Source of the DNA: Candidatus Caccoplasma merdipullorum
GTDB lineage: Bacteria; Bacteroidota; Bacteroidia; Bacteroidales; G3-4614
Reading direction: 5' to 3'
Assembly: GCA_017694415.1 (NCBI GenBank)
Contig: JADIMW010000078.1
Location: 1-54,178 of the forward strand
DNA: 54,178 nt
Below are positions 2,350 through 30,856 of the stretch, in pieces. Positions within the stretch are counted from its first letter, which is position 1. Each line of letters opens with the position of its first letter. A model generated the notes under the pieces. The model was not told the origin of the DNA and did no database searches. It saw only the letters and a list, made by a program, of their open reading frames with translations. The position numbers were made by a program, and so were the translations under genes.

Positions 2350-3494
2350 AAGCGGCAAGATACATGATATTGACGGCGATAATACTTGCGGCAGTATCGT
2401 GCCGCACCGACGACGTCGTGCTCCTCTCCGAGAGCGAAGGAGTGGAGGGGCTTGCCCCCGATGCCGCAGCCAATCCTTACGGCTTCTACCTGCTCAACGA
2501 AGGGAACATGGGGAGCAACAAGGCCACAATCGACTTCATGGACTACCGCACTGCGGTTTACAGCCGCAACATATACGGCGAGCGCAACCCTTCGGTCGTA
2601 AAAGAGCTGGGCGACGTAGGCAACGACATAAAGATATACCGCGGGCGCATATATGCCGTAATAAACGCATCGCACAAGGTAGAAGTAATGAATGCCGGCG
2701 ACTGCACACGGATAGGTCAGGTCGATATACCCAACTGCCGTTACATAACATTCGACGGCGACAACGCTTACGTAACCTCATACGTCGCCCCCATAGGTAT
2801 CTCGCCCGACGCAGAAGAAGGAGCGGTATATCGTTTCGACACCGCCACACTTGCCGTTACGGGAACGGTAAAAGTAGGATACCAGCCCGAAGAATCCGTC
2901 ATCTCCGACGGCTATCTCTATGTAGCCAATTCGGGCGGATACCGTGCCCCCGATTACGACAATACCGTGTCGGTAATACGCCTCTCCGATTTCAAACAGA
3001 CCGCCAAATACCCCGTGGCAATCAATCTGTCGCAAATACGCAAGGACGGTTACGGCAAGCTCTGGGTATTGTCGCGCGGCGATTACTACACGCACCCCTC
3101 GCTGCTATACCGTCTTACCGTAAACGGCGGCGAGATAACCGACGTGGAGAACACCGGCATACAGGCATCAGGCTTTACAATCGAAGGCGACCGGCTCTAT
3201 CTGTACAGTTCACCGTGGAACAACAATGTACAGACAGGCAACACGGAATACAAAACCGTCGATACCCGCACGGCATCCGTCATCGACGACGCATTTATCC
3301 GCGACGGCACGCAAACCGACATAAAAGTCCCGTACGGAATCTTCGTAAACCCCTCCACGGGCAGCATCCTTATATGCGATGCAAAAAACTACGTATCGTC
3401 GGGGACAATAACCTCCTACACCCCGCAGGGAATAAAAGAATGGAGCGTATATACGGGCGACATACCCGCACATGTGGCATTTACATACAAATAA
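2346..3494 (+). CDS. btuG: BtuG-like surface lipoprotein (YncE/DUF5074-type beta-propeller)
   Basis: A 382-residue lipoprotein. The signal peptide ends in lipobox AVSC with Cys19, followed by the acidic residues RTDD, which resemble the Bacteroidota surface-export signal. The mature part has repeated beta-propeller segments of the YncE/DUF5074 kind (for example NPYGFYLLNEGNMGSNKATI and VEVMNAGDCTRIGQVDIP). In Bacteroides thetaiotaomicron the BtuG protein next to BtuB is a seven-bladed propeller that captures B12 on the surface and caps the receptor; position and fold suggest the same role here. The start ATG overlaps the btuB stop as ATGA, indicating translational coupling. The longer ORF-track start at 2103 lies inside btuB and lacks a signal peptide, so it was not used. 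Confidence 0.82.
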   Translation: MKAARYMILTAIILAAVSCRTDDVVLLSESEGVEGLAPDAAANPYGFYLLNEGNMGSNKATIDFMDYRTAVYSRNIYGERNPSVVKELGDVGNDIKIYRGRIYAVINASHKVEVMNAGDCTRIGQVDIPNCRYITFDGDNAYVTSYVAPIGISPDAEEGAVYRFDTATLAVTGTVKVGYQPEESVISDGYLYVANSGGYRAPDYDNTVSVIRLSDFKQTAKYPVAINLSQIRKDGYGKLWVLSRGDYYTHPSLLYRLTVNGGEITDVENTGIQASGFTIEGDRLYLYSSPWNNNVQTGNTEYKTVDTRTASVIDDAFIRDGTQTDIKVPYGIFVNPSTGSILICDAKNYVSSGTITSYTPQGIKEWSVYTGDIPAHVAFTYK

Positions 3495-3502
3495 AAAGAA
3501 CC

Positions 3503-4720
3503 ATGAAAACAAGAACGGCAAACCACATAACGGCTAAACTGACACGTGCGGCAGCGGCGGCAACCCTTTTGCTGGCAGCAGTCGGGTGCAACGGCGGAGA
3601 AGACAAGTTCACATCGGTAGGGCTCGACGACAGCTATGCCGTAGTCCGCATGCAAAAACTCAAACTCGCCACCGGCGCACCCGGCGACAGTTACATGTGG
3701 AGAGCCATATCGCCCGACGGGACATCGACACTCCTCTCCGATTCGGCAAGCTGTATCTTCGTGGCCGCCACGGTAGGGACATACACCATACAGCTCGACA
3801 TAACCGACGGGACTACGACAATGCAGGAGACCAGCCGGGTGGCGGTAATTGCCGAAGAAATAGAATATTCCGGAACTATATCTGCCGTATATGACTATCT
3901 TCCCGCACCCGGGCAGTTCATAAACACTATGCCCGAATACGAAGAGGGGGATACCCGCGCCGACATGAACGCGAAAGCCCTCGCCTCGCTGCAGGCCGGA
4001 GGACTGGTATCGCTCGGGGCGTGCGGCGGATACATGATATTCGGGTTCGACCATACCGTAGCCAATGTTACCGGAGCAAAAGACTTCGCCCTGTACGGCA
4101 ATGCAGTGCTTAACACCAATGCGCATGGTGAAGTAACAGGCGGCAGCGCCGAGCCCGGGGCAGTATATGTATCGCTCGACGAAAACGGGAACGGCCTGCC
4201 CGACGACCGGTGGTACGAACTTGCGGGCAGCGAGCACGGCAAGGACGGCACGCTGCGCGGATACACGATAACATACCGGCGTCCCGACGATAACAAGACA
4301 CCCGTGGCAGGTGTGGCAGGCGTAACCGACTGCGAATATATAGCGTGGAGCGATAATGCGGGCGGGAGCGGGTACGTCGAAAAAAACACATTCCACCCGC
4401 AGAACTATTACCCGCAGTGGATAAACGCCGATGAACTAACATATACCGTAACGCGGTTGCCGGCAAACGGAACCGACGTGTCGGGCAACGGCTCGAATTA
4501 CGTCCTCAAGCCGTACGATTGGGGGTATGCCGACAACCATCCCAACAGCGACAAGGATAAAAACAGCTTCGACATATCGTGGGCAATCGACGAAGAAGGA
4601 AACAGCGTATATCTCCCCGGCGTCGATTTCATAAAAGTCTCCACAGCCGTAATACAATCGTGCGGTTGGATAGGGGAGACCTCCACCGAAATATCCGGAG
4701 CAGAAGATTTGCATTTATAG
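3503..4720 (+). CDS. PKD-like surface lipoprotein of the cobalamin locus
   Basis: A 405-residue predicted lipoprotein with lipobox AAVGC (Cys29) followed by NGGED. Residues about 45-110 look like a PKD/Ig-like module (YMWRAISPDG, then VGTYTIQLDITDG). The larger C-terminal part contains ENGNGLPDDRWYELAGSEHG and a TYTVTRLPANG segment typical of Bacteroidales 'cell surface protein' entries in B12 loci. It starts 8 bases after btuG and ends 43 bases before the next gene, so it shares the riboswitch-controlled transcript. Its biochemical role cannot be read from sequence. By context it is an accessory surface protein for cobamide capture, possibly in the class that includes BtuH, but I cannot confirm that homology. 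Confidence 0.7.
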   Translation: MKTRTANHITAKLTRAAAAATLLLAAVGCNGGEDKFTSVGLDDSYAVVRMQKLKLATGAPGDSYMWRAISPDGTSTLLSDSASCIFVAATVGTYTIQLDITDGTTTMQETSRVAVIAEEIEYSGTISAVYDYLPAPGQFINTMPEYEEGDTRADMNAKALASLQAGGLVSLGACGGYMIFGFDHTVANVTGAKDFALYGNAVLNTNAHGEVTGGSAEPGAVYVSLDENGNGLPDDRWYELAGSEHGKDGTLRGYTITYRRPDDNKTPVAGVAGVTDCEYIAWSDNAGGSGYVEKNTFHPQNYYPQWINADELTYTVTRLPANGTDVSGNGSNYVLKPYDWGYADNHPNSDKDKNSFDISWAIDEEGNSVYLPGVDFIKVSTAVIQSCGWIGETSTEISGAEDLHL

Positions 4721-4763: not shown

Positions 4764-5807
4764 ATGAAAAAATTTTACATTGCATTGAGTTTTGCAGCAG
4801 CACTTCTTGCCATGCCTGCAACAACCGTATCGGCAGAAGGAAACAAGATTGTCCTCGACCTCGCCAACCCGGCAAACCCCGAATCGTTCGACTTCGACGA
4901 TAAAGGCGTATGGACGGGAACATACAGCGAAGACTACATGTATTGGGAATCGCAAGTATTCATGTTCACCCACATCCTCGGCGGAAGTTCGTGGGGCGGC
5001 TCGTATTGGGACGGATTCACCGTAAGCCGCAATTCCGACAATACCGACCATGCCGCCGACGGTTGGCTTGCGTACCAATGGGGTTGTATGGCCGGCGGAG
5101 GAATAACAAACGTCGATGAAACGACAGGCGAAGTCTCCGTAAGCGCCGACCGCCCCTATATACTCGGATATTGGAGCGGATTTCCCGAAGACTGTTGTAC
5201 CATACTCTTCAACGACGGCAACAGCTATTCGCCCGCAGGAGTATATATCTCGCTCAGCCCGTACGCATACTATGCCAATATAAACGGAGCATCGCCCGCA
5301 TCGCCCATGCAGAACGAAGGCGATTTCCTGAGCATTACGGCAACTGCAGTCGATGCGGATGGAGGCAAGACTTCGGTAACCAAGATACTTGCCGAGTACC
5401 GTAACGGCAAACTCGAGCAAAGCGACAAATGGGAGTGGTTCGACCTCTCATCGCTCGGGAAAGCCGAACAGATAATCTTTACGATGGATTCGTCCGACAA
5501 AAGTTACGGCTATATGAATACCCCCGCATACTTCTGCCTCGACCGTCTTACCGTAACAACCGACGACCTCAGCGGCGTAGAAGAGAGCAAGGCGGTATCG
5601 TCCGAATTCAAGATATATGCGGCAGGCGGTACACTCAACATCGAAGCCCCGACAGCAGCAGTGGCAGCAATCTATTCGATGAGCGGTACGCAGGTTCGCA
5701 CCGCACAGGTAGCCGAAGGGTACAATACCGTACAGATAGCCGACCTCCCCGCAGGCGTATATATAGTAAAATGCGCAGGAGAGACAACCTGCATAATAAA
5801 AAAATAG
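4764..5807 (+). CDS. Secreted DUF4465-like protein with type IX sorting tail
   Basis: A 347-residue protein with an N-terminal signal peptide (MKKFYIALSFAAALLAMPATTVSA) and no lipobox. The body has the DUF4465 look: FDFDDKGVWTG near the start, SSWGGSYWDGFTVS, and a late FCLDRLTVT strand. The last 70 or so residues resemble a type IX (type A) sorting domain, with IYSMSGTQV, the DLPAGVYIVK turn and a basic end IIKK. PorU and PorV are encoded in this window, so the machinery is present. As the fourth gene of the B12 operon it is probably an extracellular cobamide-related accessory factor (inference). DUF4465 assignment is from pattern memory, not a search. Confidence 0.7.
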   Translation: MKKFYIALSFAAALLAMPATTVSAEGNKIVLDLANPANPESFDFDDKGVWTGTYSEDYMYWESQVFMFTHILGGSSWGGSYWDGFTVSRNSDNTDHAADGWLAYQWGCMAGGGITNVDETTGEVSVSADRPYILGYWSGFPEDCCTILFNDGNSYSPAGVYISLSPYAYYANINGASPASPMQNEGDFLSITATAVDADGGKTSVTKILAEYRNGKLEQSDKWEWFDLSSLGKAEQIIFTMDSSDKSYGYMNTPAYFCLDRLTVTTDDLSGVEESKAVSSEFKIYAAGGTLNIEAPTAAVAAIYSMSGTQVRTAQVAEGYNTVQIADLPAGVYIVKCAGETTCIIKK

Positions 5808-5849
5808 CGGCGGCGCAGTTCGGATAGAGGCGAACGCCATTAAAAAACA

Positions 5850-5930
5850 TTACGGTACGATACGGGTTATAACAGTGTTTGATAACAAATGCCATTGTCC
5901 GTCAGCATAAACCGCCGTATCGTACCGTAA
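5850..5930. repeat. Perfect 16-bp inverted repeat with 49-base interior
   Basis: TTACGGTACGATACGG at 5850-5865 is repeated as its exact reverse complement at 5915-5930. The interior contains a smaller GTTAT/ATAAC pair. It lies in the 3' untranslated region after the B12 operon. It could be a structured RNA end or a very small non-autonomous element; no flanking target duplication was seen. Confidence 0.6.
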
Positions 5931-5936
5931 AAGCCA

Positions 5937-5988
5937 ATCGCGGAGGGAAACAGGCCGACAAGATGCCGTTCCCCCCCGCGATATTTTT
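5937..5988 (+). terminator. Probable intrinsic terminator of the cobalamin operon
   Basis: ATCGCGG pairs with CCGCGAT, with an inner GGGAA/TTCCC pairing, and is followed by ATATTTTTAT. It lies 130 bases after the last gene and before the next promoter. The stem has an internal bulge, so strength is uncertain. Confidence 0.5.
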
Positions 5989-6065
5989 ATGCCTATTCCT
6001 GCGCAGCCGCGCTCTCCCTGCAAAACAAAAAAACCGGCAGACAAATATCGGTAAAAGAACTTGAG

Positions 6066-6073
6066 TATCTTTG
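6066..6073 (+). promoter_or_regulatory. Promoter -7 element before queH
   Basis: TATCTTTG matches TAnnTTTG exactly, 51 bases before the chosen ATG. No clear -33 TTTG is found at the right distance. Because this box overlaps the ORF-track start at 6071, that longer start is unlikely. Confidence 0.5.
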
Positions 6074-6124
6074 TACCCGATACAGGGCACTCCCGCAAGA
6101 AACAGACAAGATAAACGGCAAAAT

Positions 6125-6754
6125 ATGGAGAGCGTAAAAAACAAGATAAAACTGATGCCGCCCGCAGGCGTTTCCCGCATAGTGCTTCATTCCTGTTGCG
6201 CCCCATGTTCGTCGGCCATAATCGAAGCTTTGCTGTACAACGGCATAACTCCGCTGATATATTACTGCAATCCCAATATATACCCGTTCGACGAATATCT
6301 GAAACGCAAAGACGAAATCACCGCGTACGCCGGAAAGTTGGGGCTGGAGATAGCCGACGGCGATTACGACCACGACAGTTGGCTCGCCTCGGTAACGGCG
6401 ATAGCAGGAAGAGAAGACGAACCCGAACGCGGAGCCCGCTGTCTCGACTGTTTCACACACCGCCTGTTGCAGGCCGCACGCTTTACCCGCGAAAAAGGAT
6501 ATGCCGTTTTCACCACCACGCTTGCATCATCGCGCTGGAAAGACATAAACCAGATATGTGCGGCAGGAAGAGCCGCGGCCGCAGCCGTCGGCGATGTGAT
6601 ATTCTGGGAACAGAACTGGCGCAAGGGAGGCCTCTACGAACGGCGCAACTACCTGCTGAAAGAAGAGAAGTTCTACAACCAGCAATATTGCGGATGCGAA
6701 TACAGCCTGCGCAACATGCAGAAGCACCGTTCCGGCAAGGAAGAAGGCAAATAA
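6125..6754 (+). CDS. queH: Epoxyqueuosine reductase QueH (DUF208)
   Basis: A 209-residue protein of the QueH family, which carries out the last step of queuosine tRNA modification (epoxyqueuosine to queuosine) in bacteria lacking QueG. The visible signature is VLHSCCAPCSS near the N-terminus, then YYCNPNIYPFDEYLKRK, a C..C pair in GARCLDCF, FTTTLASSRWKD, and a late QQYCGCEYSL cysteine pair. These cysteines would hold an iron-sulfur cluster and a metal. The start at 6125 gives the usual length; the track start (TTG at 6071) overlaps the promoter. It stands alone between the B12 operon and a convergent phosphorylase gene. Confidence 0.9.
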   Translation: MESVKNKIKLMPPAGVSRIVLHSCCAPCSSAIIEALLYNGITPLIYYCNPNIYPFDEYLKRKDEITAYAGKLGLEIADGDYDHDSWLASVTAIAGREDEPERGARCLDCFTHRLLQAARFTREKGYAVFTTTLASSRWKDINQICAAGRAAAAAVGDVIFWEQNWRKGGLYERRNYLLKEEKFYNQQYCGCEYSLRNMQKHRSGKEEGK

Positions 6755-8089: not shown

Positions 8090-8497
8090 ATGGAAAAACT
8101 AACAACTAATCGCGGCTTTTGGTTAGCCTTTTTATTATCGATTGTAACACTCGGTTTCTATTCATGGTATCTTATTTATGCTTTTGCAAAGGAGACGAAT
8201 ATCGCCTGTAAAGACGACGGTAAAAGTACGTCAGGATTGCTGGTATATATCTTGTTGTCGATAATCACATTGGGAATATATTCCTTAGTATGGTATTATA
8301 AATGGATAAACCGTTGCAACGCTTATCTTATAAGAAACGGCAAGCCCACAGGGTTGAGCGCATCTACCTACCTCTTGACCGTATTTATCTTGGGGTGGCT
8401 TACGCTCGGTATTATGTATCTGGTTGTATTCTGCAAGATGCTTTATTTGCAGAATGCCGTTAATGCTACATATAACGAAAAAAACAATCTGGTGTAA
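8090..8497 (+). CDS. DUF4234 membrane protein
   Basis: A 135-residue protein with three hydrophobic segments: about residues 9-31 (FWLAFLLSIVTLGFYSWYLI), 49-69 (LLVYILLSIITLGIYSLVWY) and 90-112. The first two share the repeated pattern LSI(V/I)TLG(F/I)YS, which is characteristic of the DUF4234 family of small inner membrane proteins. Function is unknown. The gene is more A+T-rich than its neighbours and stands alone, with its own promoter, between a minus-strand phosphorylase and the end of the trp operon. Confidence 0.75.
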   Translation: MEKLTTNRGFWLAFLLSIVTLGFYSWYLIYAFAKETNIACKDDGKSTSGLLVYILLSIITLGIYSLVWYYKWINRCNAYLIRNGKPTGLSASTYLLTVFILGWLTLGIMYLVVFCKMLYLQNAVNATYNEKNNLV

Positions 8498-8756
8498 TCC
8501 TTACGGAAAACGCAAACAGCCAACAACAACGCGGCGCTGCGTCGAAACTAAAATCTTCGGCACAGCTCCGCGCTGTTTGTTTTTACGTAGCAAATGCCAT
8601 GATTCCGCGACGCTTGCGGAAAAATATGTTTTCGGATACGGACATAAGGCTGACGGCCTACAAAAATTACATGCTCTCCATAACAGCGTAGAATCTGTCG
8701 GAATTTCGGATGTCCCGACACTGTTGTAGAGTCGTATGGCAAAACCGTAAGGTCTG

Positions 8757-9548
8757 CTATCGCGACAGTTCCTCCTTCAATTGCCGTATTCCCGTCTCCG
8801 CATCGCCGCATTCGCCCATAATGCTGATAAAGCGGCTTCCTATTATACCCCCAGCAGCATTGGCACAGGCGGCGGCGAACGTGGCGCGGTTGCTTATCCC
8901 GAACCCTATCATGCGCGGATTGCGCAGGTTCATCGAATTTATCCGTTCGAAATATCTTATCGTTTCATCGTCGAACCGCTCTTTCGCCCCCGTTGTGGAA
9001 GCCGTCGAAACCATATAGATAAAGCCGTCGGTATTATCGTCTATCTTGCGAATCCTGTCGTCCGACGTTTCGGGAGTAACAAGCATTATGACGCTGACCG
9101 AATATTTGTCGGCAAGAGGTTTTATATCCGTCATGTAATCCTCGAACGGCAGGTCGGGGATGATACATCCGTCGATGCCGCATTCCGAACAACTTTTGAA
9201 AAACTCCTCAAAACCGTACTGCATTATCGGGTTCATATAACCCATAAGAACGAGCGGTATCCTCACCGTGCGACGGATCCCCGCAAGCTGGACAAAGATT
9301 CTTTTCAGGCTCATCCCGTTGCGGAGAGCCTTTGTCGCGGCGTCCTGTATCACTTTGCCGTCGGCTATGGGGTCGCTGAACGGGATACCCACTTCAACCA
9401 TATCCACCCCGTACCTCTCCAGTCCCGATATAACCTCCGCCGTATTCTCCGCTTTCGGAAACCCTGCACAAAAATAGACCGACAATATCTCTTTCCCCTT
9501 TTCGTCGAAAAGAGCCTTTATTCTGTTACTCTTCATCTTGTTTACCAT
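8757..9548 (-). CDS. trpA: Tryptophan synthase alpha subunit
   Basis: A 263-residue TIM-barrel enzyme that splits indole-3-glycerol phosphate to indole and glyceraldehyde-3-phosphate, handing indole to TrpB. Family marks are YFCAGFPKAENT, the catalytic-Glu region MVEVGIPFSDPIADGKVIQDA (the Asp in the same stretch is also catalytic), PLVLMGYMNPI, and GFGISNRATF in the phosphate-binding end. It is the last gene of the operon and overlaps trpF by 23 bases. ATG at 9548 or 9536 could start translation. The 259 bases after its stop contain only loose inverted repeats. Confidence 0.95.
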   Translation of the reverse strand: MVNKMKSNRIKALFDEKGKEILSVYFCAGFPKAENTAEVISGLERYGVDMVEVGIPFSDPIADGKVIQDAATKALRNGMSLKRIFVQLAGIRRTVRIPLVLMGYMNPIMQYGFEEFFKSCSECGIDGCIIPDLPFEDYMTDIKPLADKYSVSVIMLVTPETSDDRIRKIDDNTDGFIYMVSTASTTGAKERFDDETIRYFERINSMNLRNPRMIGFGISNRATFAAACANAAGGIIGSRFISIMGECGDAETGIRQLKEELSR

Positions 9549-19711: not shown

Positions 19712-21268
19712 CTAATCCTCGAAAATAAAATCCTTTCCCGCAAGCGGCAGCAGCCTGAAAAGGCCGTAAGGCGTTATCCCCCCGTCGCCGCTGCCGGGAG
19801 TAAACGAAACACGTCCGCCCGAAATGACATAGCTGCCGCAATTACCGTCTATAATATCGTCATGCAGCACTATTTCAGTTTCGGTATCTGGAAAATACCC
19901 CACATACCTTTGCAGGTACTCTTTAGCATTTACAACCCTGAATACCGTCTCATTCTCCTCATTGCCCTCCCACCAGATAAACGGGTATGCCACTGAAATC
20001 ACCCCCGTTTCCGAAACCTCGCCGGCACAGGCAAACCCCAGCGACGAAGCCAGATTCTTCAGCCGGTTGCAGTTTATCCTCGACATTACTACCGCCTCAC
20101 CCGCATCGAACATCTTCAACAATGCCCGTTTTACCATGCCGATACCGAGACCGCGCTTCTTGAACTGCGGCATTACCGTAACGGCGCAGATATACGGGAT
20201 AGAGCCGTATTCATACTTTAAACGATGTATGAAAATTGCAGCAGCCGGAATCTCCCCCTCATTTAAAATAAAGACGTTCTCCTTTTCGTAGAAAGCCGAT
20301 ATGTAAGAGGCGATATTCGACGCGTCCGCATTGAAGCCGTTTTCGAGAAAACGCCATATCGTCATTTCCGTACTGTCGCGTTCTATTGCATAAAACTTCT
20401 TATAAAGCTCTTCGGGGTGATACGACAGTTTAGAGCCCCTCAACCCTTTCAGTCCGAGGTCCTCCTCGCGGTTTATATGCCGATATTTCTCCGGGAGAGA
20501 ATTGACAAAAAGACGGTTAATCATCGGAAATGCACTTTCAAATTCCGTATCAGCCTTTTCGATATGTATGCAGAAAGTCTCCTCGTTAATCGGCGACCCG
20601 TAAGTAAAGGCAATCATCCTGCCGTTTACATACAAAGCCCCTCCACGAAGCCCGAGAGCATCGAAGTTTTCCATGCCCGTACGTATAACGTTCTCTTCCA
20701 CCTCCAACGAACGGTTGTCCGAATTTTTCCCCTCGCGCCATTTGTGCAACAGGGAAAAAACCTCTTCCCCGTGTGCAGGAGTCAAAGCCTCGTAACGATA
20801 TTCATATTCGCGCATGAACTGATTTATGTGATTCCGTTTCGGTTGCAGCTTCTTTCCGCTTAACGTCCGCAGCGATTCGGCAGGATAGATATAATCGAAA
20901 AAATCCCTGTTCTCGAAAACAAAAAGCTCTTTGTCGAGATGCATACCCGACAGCCTTTCGGCAAACCCCTGCGAAAGGCTTTGCAGTCTCAGCGGCTCAC
21001 CGGCCGCCGCCGCATCGTCGGCAAGCAATCTTACTGCATGTTCAATATCCCCTTCGCCGAGAGGTTCGAAATAGCCGGTTTTCCTGCGTCCGTCAATCTT
21101 TATGCGCATCAGCAGAAAACCGTCCGATTCGCAAATCTCGTTACGGTAAAACGATGCCCAGCAGAAGACATTGGCAAAAGCCATATCGCAGTTCCTTCCG
21201 CCATACAGGTAAGAATATTTTTCAAAAAGAGGTTTATCCGCAACAGTAACAGGCCTGAAGTCGAGCAT
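19712..21268 (-). CDS. DUF2156 (lysyltransferase-like) fused to a GNAT domain
   Basis: A 518-residue two-domain protein. Residues 1 to about 295 match the DUF2156 family, related to the C-terminal domain of phosphatidylglycerol lysyltransferases (NHINQFMREYEYRYEAL, FTYGSPINEETFCIHIEKAD, then NREEDLGLKGLRGSKLSYHP). From about residue 305 a GNAT domain follows, with a CoA-loop region YICAVTVMPQFKKRGLGIGM and a RLKNLASSLGF end. DUF2156 domains use aminoacyl-tRNA-like donors in characterised relatives; the role of this cytosolic version is unknown. A second, free-standing GNAT gene follows 5 bases later. No membrane segments are seen, unlike MprF. Confidence 0.78.
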   Translation of the reverse strand: MLDFRPVTVADKPLFEKYSYLYGGRNCDMAFANVFCWASFYRNEICESDGFLLMRIKIDGRRKTGYFEPLGEGDIEHAVRLLADDAAAAGEPLRLQSLSQGFAERLSGMHLDKELFVFENRDFFDYIYPAESLRTLSGKKLQPKRNHINQFMREYEYRYEALTPAHGEEVFSLLHKWREGKNSDNRSLEVEENVIRTGMENFDALGLRGGALYVNGRMIAFTYGSPINEETFCIHIEKADTEFESAFPMINRLFVNSLPEKYRHINREEDLGLKGLRGSKLSYHPEELYKKFYAIERDSTEMTIWRFLENGFNADASNIASYISAFYEKENVFILNEGEIPAAAIFIHRLKYEYGSIPYICAVTVMPQFKKRGLGIGMVKRALLKMFDAGEAVVMSRINCNRLKNLASSLGFACAGEVSETGVISVAYPFIWWEGNEENETVFRVVNAKEYLQRYVGYFPDTETEIVLHDDIIDGNCGSYVISGGRVSFTPGSGDGGITPYGLFRLLPLAGKDFIFED

Positions 21269-21324: not shown

Positions 21325-21503
21325 AGAGAAAAGTAATATAACTTGTGAAACAACGATTGGTATGTAAAGAAAGCTGAACCCTTATCCTCCACTTATCGTT
21401 AAAATACGTAAGCAATTTACAGCAAGTGTTTTGCCGTAAGTTATAAGAAATAAGAAAAAATGTTATTTTTTTGCAGCAGACAGGCTAAGACCCGTCAAAT
21501 ATG

Positions 21504-21522
21504 TATCTCTTCATAAGAGATA
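21504..21522. repeat. Left copy of a paired dyad (TATCTCTT-CAT-AAGAGATA)
   Basis: A perfect 8-bp palindrome with a 3-base centre. The 17 bases 21506-21522 recur as an exact reverse complement at 21681-21697. The two copies flank a 158-base segment containing a promoter. Confidence 0.7.
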
Positions 21523-21635
21523 TACATCACACATACATAAGTTAATAATAAAGGGTTTATATACTTGCTATCGAGAACGCGACTAATAACGCTTCACGCG
21601 TTTTAGCATTTCATCGGAATTTTATTTTCTAAAAG

Positions 21636-21666
21636 TTTGTTATTATTAATGTTTTATATATCTTCG
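21636..21666 (+). promoter_or_regulatory. Promoter between the paired dyads, facing the beta-barrel gene
   Basis: TTTG at 21636-21639, a 19-base spacer, and TATCTTCG at 21659-21666 (one mismatch to TAnnTTTG). It points toward the gene at 21829, with a predicted leader of about 155 bases that begins just before the right dyad. Confidence 0.5.
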
Positions 21667-21680
21667 TAGCGTGATATATG

Positions 21681-21697
21681 TATCTCTTATGAAGAGA
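21681..21697. repeat. Right copy of the paired dyad, inverted
   Basis: TATCTCTTATGAAGAGA is the exact reverse complement of 21506-21522. Because each copy is itself nearly palindromic, only the centre (CAT versus ATG) and flanks show the inverted orientation. It could be a recombination site or an operator, or form a 5' hairpin on the transcript. Confidence 0.65.
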
Positions 21698-21828
21698 CAC
21701 GTTAATGGAACGGGACGGTACGAAGGATATGATGAGATTTTCAGTGTAGTAGCAATAAGCTAAAAAGTAGTGGAATAGAGGTGCTTAGGAAGCTGTACGA
21801 TAATAATATAAACATAAATTAAAGAACT

Positions 21829-22668
21829 ATGAAGAAAACTATTTTAGCGATTTTTGTCGCTGCCATAACAATGCCTGTTATGGCGCAATTGAACGACATT
21901 AATGAGAAGAAATTCTCTGTAGGAGTTCGCACAGGGGTAACGATAGGAGGATTGACAGGAGTTGCCGACATGTTGAATTACGACCCGTCAGGAATAGCAC
22001 CTGTAAATCCTTATGATTCAAAAGCCGGAGCGGGAATAAGTTTGGGCGTAGTGTTCAACACCCGCATAAACGACTGGTTTTATATACAGCCGGGTTTGGA
22101 GTATGCAATGCTTTCAAGCAAGGCAAAAATGGAGTTGCCGGCCAAAGATCTCGACGGTACGGGATTATCCGAAGATAAATATTCTACTGTTGTAAGAGGA
22201 CACTACCTTAGAATACCTATTCTCGCCTCTTTCCGAATCAATTTCGATAAATGCCAGCTTCAGGTAAATACAGGACCTTATCTGGCGGTAGCACTTGCAG
22301 CAAGACAGATAGATTCACGTGCATTTACTTATGCTGCAGACCAAGGAGCATATTCAGGGATGACGTTTAAGGAAAAGACCATAACAGACCCCTTGGCTAC
22401 ACAATATAACATGGTTTACGACAATACGGGGAATTTAACCGAAATTGATGAATACAGCGTATACAATCGTTTCGATGTAGGATGGGATATCGGTATCGCT
22501 TTGAATTACAAAAATATCGTATTCGGAGCCAAATATAACGTAGGATTCGTGAACATGCTTAATGAAGAGATGTTCAATATTGTAAACGCATCAGATCCCG
22601 GAGATGTTAAATTCGACAAGACAATGCGCAACTCGTCATTCTCCTTATCGATAGGATACGACTTCTAA
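21829..22668 (+). CDS. Outer membrane beta-barrel protein (porin/PorT-like family)
   Basis: A 279-residue protein with signal peptide MKKTILAIFVAAITMPVMAQ and an all-beta pattern of alternating aromatic strands: VGVRTGVTIGGLTG, WFYIQPGLEYAMLSSKAKM, LRIPILASFRINF, VGWDIGIALNYKNIVFGAKY and a final SFSLSIGYDF ending in Phe. It resembles the Bacteroidota 'outer membrane protein beta-barrel' family, whose roles vary, and no specific cargo can be proposed. Its long upstream region (21269-21828, no other gene) carries the inverted dyads and promoter, suggesting unusual regulation, perhaps phase variation. Confidence 0.8.
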   Translation: MKKTILAIFVAAITMPVMAQLNDINEKKFSVGVRTGVTIGGLTGVADMLNYDPSGIAPVNPYDSKAGAGISLGVVFNTRINDWFYIQPGLEYAMLSSKAKMELPAKDLDGTGLSEDKYSTVVRGHYLRIPILASFRINFDKCQLQVNTGPYLAVALAARQIDSRAFTYAADQGAYSGMTFKEKTITDPLATQYNMVYDNTGNLTEIDEYSVYNRFDVGWDIGIALNYKNIVFGAKYNVGFVNMLNEEMFNIVNASDPGDVKFDKTMRNSSFSLSIGYDF

Positions 22669-30490: not shown

Positions 30491-30522
30491 CAAAAGTAGT
30501 GCAAACCGAGCGTACAGGCAAA
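30491..30522 (-). promoter_or_regulatory. Promoter embedded in a direct repeat, facing dapB
   Basis: On the minus strand TTTG (30519-30522), a 20-base spacer and TACTTTTG (30491-30498). Both boxes are exact and most of the promoter lies inside the 27-base repeat unit. Confidence 0.6.
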
Positions 30523-30523
30523 T
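30497..30523. repeat. 27-base direct repeat, copy 1
   Basis: TAGTGCAAACCGAGCGTACAGGCAAAT, repeated exactly at 30707-30733. Its last part forms a perfect 12-bp hairpin with ATTTGCCTGTAC at 30528-30539. The TGCAAACCGAG core recalls an interspersed intergenic motif of Bacteroidales genomes (from memory, not searched). Confidence 0.8.
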
Positions 30524-30706
30524 TTTTATTTGCCTGTACCTGTCGGGAAGCCATAACATGCAATCTGCGTCGTTGCCATCAGGTTTCGGGCTCGGCCGTT
30601 TACCATTAGTAAACTCAACTCGCCCTCACCTTCAGCGCCTTGCATCTTACACATTCTTGCTTCCCTTTAATCCCGTGCCTGCTTCCCCGACCGTACGGGA
30701 GAAAAA

Positions 30707-30733
30707 TAGTGCAAACCGAGCGTACAGGCAAAT
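30707..30733. repeat. 27-base direct repeat, copy 2
   Basis: An exact copy of 30497-30523, 210 bases downstream. Here the -7 position on the minus strand reads TATTTTTC, so the promoter match is lost by one base. The region 30327-30856 has no gene; it holds these repeats and a TTTACCATTAGTAAA dyad at about 30599-30613. Confidence 0.8.
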
Positions 30734-30856
30734 AAAATTCACTTGTACGCAAGAGCAGCCCGCTTCCTGCCCGAGCTGTTGCCCGTACTGCCATTAACCG
30801 CATGCCTGCTCCCTTTTTGCCCCCTGCTGCCGTTTTTATAGCCAGCGGCACTCGGA

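Follow-up and report, generated by a model that had tools for sequence, protein, structure and literature searches.

The window, meaning the whole stretch of 54,178 nt of Candidatus Caccoplasma merdipullorum DNA analysed here, is one contig (C54) of the genome designated G000, whose congeners are designated G001–G007. The locus of interest is the intergenic region between two divergent genes, one encoding an outer-membrane beta-barrel protein and the other a protein with an LPG_synthase_C domain (Table 1). The 17-bp inverted repeats reported there by the earlier note are both exact: TCTCTTCATAAGAGATA is found at 21506–21522 on the plus strand and at 21681–21697 on the minus strand, and at up to three mismatches the window holds four matches to it, against 0.10 in window shuffles. 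These repeats are enclosed in 30-nt arms (21503–21532 and 21671–21700) with a complementarity of 83%, and the pair is the longest among all inverted repeats of at least 14 nt lying within 400 bp of each other in the whole window. Since each copy is itself a dyad, TCTCTT-CAT-AAGAGA, the repeat unit is better regarded as a 15-bp palindromic site with an asymmetric 3-base core than as a plain inverted repeat.

Between the repeats, as also noted earlier, TTTG-N19-TATCTTCG (21636–21666) faces the gene at 21829; it outscores every other plus-strand promoter match of the intergenic region, the Bacteroidetes −33/−7 consensus being taken from published work (PMC8748976), and it lies near the right end of the interior. 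The Pfam assignment of that gene bears out its description as an outer membrane protein gene. Two features of an invertible promoter are thus seen at the window locus: a promoter that faces a gene from between inverted repeats, and a core (CAT) shared by both copies. The ortholog of the beta-barrel gene in G007 (contig C26) also adjoins a site pair, and a search of GTDB contigs gave no relatives of the protein. No published description of the exact window repeat was found by a full-text search with its halves, most of the subscription literature lying outside the scope of that search.

Table 1. Features of the candidate invertible promoter locus and its surroundings, in window coordinates
Feature	Position	Strand	Basis
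Left recombination site (predicted), TATCTCTT-CAT-AAGAGATA	21504..21522, core 21506–21520	+	exact match to right copy; motif paired at four other G000 loci
Right recombination site (predicted), inverted copy with matching CAT core	21681..21699, core 21683–21697	-	sequence
Predicted invertible segment, 162 bp between sites	21521..21682	.	interiors of 19 pairs: 148–175 bp
−33 element TTTG, Bacteroidetes-type promoter	21636..21639	+	consensus match TTTG-N19-TATCTTCG
−7 element TATCTTCG, ON orientation	21659..21666	+	consensus match; orthologous interior on G007 C26 aligns the same way
Target gene: outer-membrane beta-barrel protein, 279 aa, signal-peptide-like start	21829..22668	+	PF13568 OMP_b-brl_2, 3.7e-20
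Putative separate promoter of the divergent left gene, TTTG-N18-TATGTTTG, outside the invertible segment	21295..21324	-	best minus-strand match in the intergenic region
Divergent neighbour, LPG_synthase_C-domain protein; the promoter would face it after inversion	19712..21268	-	PF09924, 1.2e-50

Another inverted repeat of the window (30524–30539 and 30722–30737) was considered as a further switch; it lacks other copies in the genome and was set aside. The region comprises the direct repeat GTGCAAACCGAGCGTACAGGCAAAT and an inverted copy of its end (30497–30540 and 30708–30737), with 16-nt arms 182 nt apart that are found nowhere else in the genome.

The TCTCTT site, on the other hand, is not confined to the window. 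At up to two mismatches, TATCTCTTNNNAAGAGA forms close inverted pairs at five G000 loci, situated on C2, C32, C54 (the window), C58, and C88, and a pattern search for the exact core TCTCTTNNNAAGAGA returned 10 sites in G000, none for the reversed control, and many sites in G004 and G007. The motif was thus found, as the earlier note had proposed to look for it, beside other surface genes: at least three of the four other G000 pairs accompany genes for surface or secreted proteins. A further 14 close pairs around promoters are present in G007, G004, and G001, and in the resulting set of 19 pairs from four species of the genus the sites are 163–190 bp apart, their arms being less extended in G000 than in G007. 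One of the G004 pairs (C44, 8054–8243) lies between a polysaccharide deacetylase gene and groES/groEL. In G002, G005, and G006 there are no pairs, and the sites occur singly as strays, one lying within a Xer gene; the completeness of G002 and G005 is only about 85%, and that of G006 is 99%.

Strand exchange by tyrosine recombinases requires matching cores in the two sites, and an operator is under no constraint to match the central bases of its partner. In 18 of the 19 genus pairs the central 3 bases agree when one site is read inverted, though they vary among loci; permutation gave a mean of 1.4 matching pairs and a maximum of 10 in 100,000 trials. Cores that match within a pair and vary by locus are therefore to be expected at a site of strand exchange but not at an operator. 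The sole exception, on contig C27 of G007, is mismatched at the central base only: its sites (8319–8333 and 8509–8523), upstream of a BspA-like gene, both read AAT on the same strand. This pair, which counts against the switch reading, is possibly locked or the product of an assembly error. All five G000 cores are distinct, which is not unlikely by chance given 32 classes, and some cores are common to several loci in G007. The locus-specific core might serve as an address by which a single trans-acting recombinase is restricted to partners within one locus, so that the five switches flip independently and no large inter-locus rearrangements arise, but we regard this idea as rather doubtful.

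In most interiors the promoter lies at a nearly constant distance from one of the sites. Relative to the gene starting beside the segment it is ON in the window and OFF on C2, C32, C58, and C88, so that orientations vary within one genome. They also vary between orthologs: G007 C10, with the same flanking genes as G000 C32 in mirror order, is ON whereas C32 is OFF, and the two interiors can be aligned only if one is turned around with respect to its flanking genes (z 3.6 vs −0.8), a weak alignment because the interiors diverge fast. The G007 ortholog of the window locus is ON as well, its interior aligning in the same relative orientation (z 6.1 vs 1.7). Among the targets are, in G000, a leucine-rich repeat protein of BspA type and lipoprotein-like proteins, the small gene on C2 having no Pfam match, and, in G007, a large protein with Fn3/GEVED domains and additional leucine-rich repeat proteins.

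The assembly of G007, a metagenome bin (locus L120 lies in an apparently identical genome), is broken at these sites more often than expected: five of them lie within 140 bp of contig ends, where about 0.08 would be expected (p about 1e-8). Three contigs end at most 6 nt from a site and two others 121 and 126 nt beyond it; either length, with the site added, comes to about 141, the k-mer size of sister bins from the same project, from which we infer that these two ends reflect the assembly k-mer size. Were both orientations present in the population, a de Bruijn assembler would break at the repeats, as is seen in the G007 contigs. Paralogous leucine-rich repeat loci could also contribute to the breaks; the interiors of C9 and C27 are alike at 82%, too little for them to collapse at that k.

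Neither a tyrosine nor a serine recombinase match is present on the window contig, in keeping with the earlier note, but the same genome does encode a candidate. A profile search of the G000 contigs gave five matches to PF00589 and none to the serine recombinase profile PF00239 (Mpi-like). Two of the five are Xer-like, one is an apparently disrupted Xer-type copy, and the other two, on C74 and C75, are members of a family whose proteins combine an arm-binding, a SAM-like, and a catalytic domain. On C6 two Xer-type genes (5243–6178 and 8542–9417) are separated by about 3 kb; in the second, similarity falls off toward the C-terminal end, as if it were a disrupted duplicate. The C74 product, of 401 aa, combines PF17293 (Arm-DNA-bind_5), PF13102 (Phage_int_SAM_5), and PF00589 (Phage_integrase), and the R, K, RH, H, and Y columns are conserved in an alignment of eight family members from the genus. 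With these domains and catalytic residues it can be predicted to be a Bacteroidales tyrosine invertase of the Tsr type.

There is no site pair within 600 nt of the C74 recombinase gene, nor beside its syntenic ortholog on G007 C4, with which it forms one strongly supported clade inside the family. The enzyme therefore probably acts in trans; what ties it to the sites is the family to which it belongs and the joint occurrence of the two. The recombinases among which C74 is nested have TCTCTT-N3-AAGAGA, or a close variant of it, as their adjacent site, whereas C75, of the same broad family and 48% identical to C74, forms a long outlying branch. A TCTCTT site lies directly downstream of a recombinase gene in G004 (three genes), G001, and G003. 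No member of the C74/C75 family was found in G002, G005, or G006, and Xer proteins occur also in genomes without site pairs. The earlier note had held that dyads found singly elsewhere would speak against a switch; paired copies predominate in the genomes that carry the recombinase, and single strays in those without it. C75 has a different inverted-repeat pair of its own, TATCCGTTTTCTTATAAGAAACGGA, directly downstream (3296–3498, with 153 nt between the arms; recombinase gene at 3511–4716 on the minus strand), which occurs as a close pair only there and is likely a second, self-linked switch.

The association of site and recombinase extends across the Bacteroidales. A GTDB scan with the genus recombinase alignment yielded 476 relatives. 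Eighty of them were retained, and in 76 the downstream sequence was long enough for use. The exact motif occurs within 260 nt downstream of the end of the match in 34 of these 76 loci, the reversed-motif control in none, and the remainder of the loci (758 kb) contains a single copy; at many other loci that position is taken by a close variant, for example CTCTATGTAAGAG. All 22 exact recombinase-linked pairs have matched inverted cores, these loci being non-independent of one another. The placement of the motif downstream of the recombinase genes of relatives suggests that TCTCTT-N3-AAGAGA is very probably the cognate site of the C74-type family. Two of the contigs in this set, binned as Oscillospiraceae (L126) and Lachnospiraceae (L156), carry a Bacteroidales-type recombinase and are probably misbinned.

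We are highly confident that 21506–21697 is a phase-variable invertible promoter flipped by a Tsr-type tyrosine recombinase, most likely the one encoded on C74. The enzyme would bind both TCTCTT-N3-AAGAGA dyads, exchange strands within the central core, where the two sites have to agree, and thereby invert the 162-bp segment that separates them. As assembled, the promoter would read through the right site into the beta-barrel gene (ON); after inversion it would face away, toward the divergent gene at 21268 (OFF), so that expression of the 21829 gene is predicted to switch with orientation. The C74 recombinase would likewise serve the four further G000 loci in trans, including the three or more with surface or secreted-protein genes. 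Inversion at the window locus and assignment of the TCTCTT sites to this enzyme are inferred from sequence; action of C74 in trans on the five loci would be the simplest assignment. The window switch would then be one of five or more in G000, which probably all depend on a single recombinase encoded elsewhere in the genome. The switch proposed in the earlier note gains support from the genome-wide inverted pairs with matched, locus-specific cores, from the presence of this kind of site pair next to tyrosine recombinase genes across the Bacteroidales, from the co-occurrence of pairs and recombinase within the genus, from the opposite promoter orientation at one orthologous locus, and from the G007 contig ends at the repeats.

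That the segment is inverted by C75 or by XerC/XerD instead of C74 is quite unlikely. All of them are encoded in G000, which counts against the C74 assignment, and C75 shares its broad family; yet C75 has its own pair TATCCGTTTTCTTATAAGAAACGGA and stands apart from the recombinases adjoining TCTCTT-N3-AAGAGA among which C74 is placed, and Xer proteins are not restricted to genomes with pairs. Very unlikely, too, is a locked relic, in which an ancestrally invertible segment has ceased to flip in this strain, leaving a promoter that does no more than drive the beta-barrel gene. The shared ON orientation of the window and its G007 ortholog, which counts against the switch, and the less extended site arms of G000 would fit such a relic, but the core dyads and CAT cores are perfect, the recombinase in the genome is apparently intact, and the other four G000 loci are OFF.

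The earlier note had also offered the palindromic copies as protein-binding sites, and in part this holds, since they are most likely the binding sites of the recombinase itself. Its other part, that they are operators for a dimeric regulator looping the DNA over the promoter with no inversion, is highly improbable: although each copy is palindromic and the spacing of 163–190 bp is fairly constant, operators have no need of the inverted core match seen in 18 of 19 genus pairs and 22 of 22 recombinase-linked pairs, the promoter direction differs among loci and between orthologs, and the gene linked to the sites in relatives encodes a recombinase and not a regulator. An invertible promoter remains our preferred reading.

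The mechanism of inversion is already known in Bacteroides, so that the surprise of this new example is modest. It extends promoter inversion by an unlinked tyrosine recombinase to a little-studied genus of gut Bacteroidales, and the predicted pairing of recombinase and TCTCTT-N3-AAGAGA can be searched for across the whole order. A beta-barrel protein, a BspA-type leucine-rich repeat protein, and lipoprotein-like proteins are predicted to vary between cells.

Among the known systems, adjacency of the invertase gene to the invertible segment is usual but not required, as global invertases act at a distance (PMC4747536). In Bacteroides fragilis the tyrosine recombinase BF2766/Tsr19, with IVp-I and IVp-II, flips a local and a distant promoter with the −7 element TAnnTTTG and so controls surface functions (PMC4747536). 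Both Tsr19 and Tsr0667 set a precedent for the action of a single tyrosine recombinase on promoters at a distance (PMC4747536). The likeness to Tsr19, judged by arrangement and not by site sequence, lies in the control of unlinked promoters by a tyrosine recombinase; IVp-II also adjoins groES/EL (PMC4747536), as does the G004 C44 pair. The G000 gene differs in having no local site pair and at least five predicted distant ones. Tsr0667 and Mpi are global invertases controlling many dispersed promoters from a distance (PMC4747536), the arrangement of one enzyme and many promoters proposed for G000; Tsr0667 also shuffles SusC/SusD gene clusters (PMC4747536), and Mpi is a serine-type recombinase (PMC5903667), a type for which G000 has no match. 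Invertase genes also occur directly upstream of invertible promoters, for example in the IP-ARG classes (PMC8748976). These systems share with the window locus the −33/−7 promoter type and the inverted-repeat architecture, and their linked arrangement is that of the GTDB recombinase relatives, whereas in G000 the switch is not linked to the recombinase and has as its target a gene for an outer-membrane protein, not a resistance or glycan gene.
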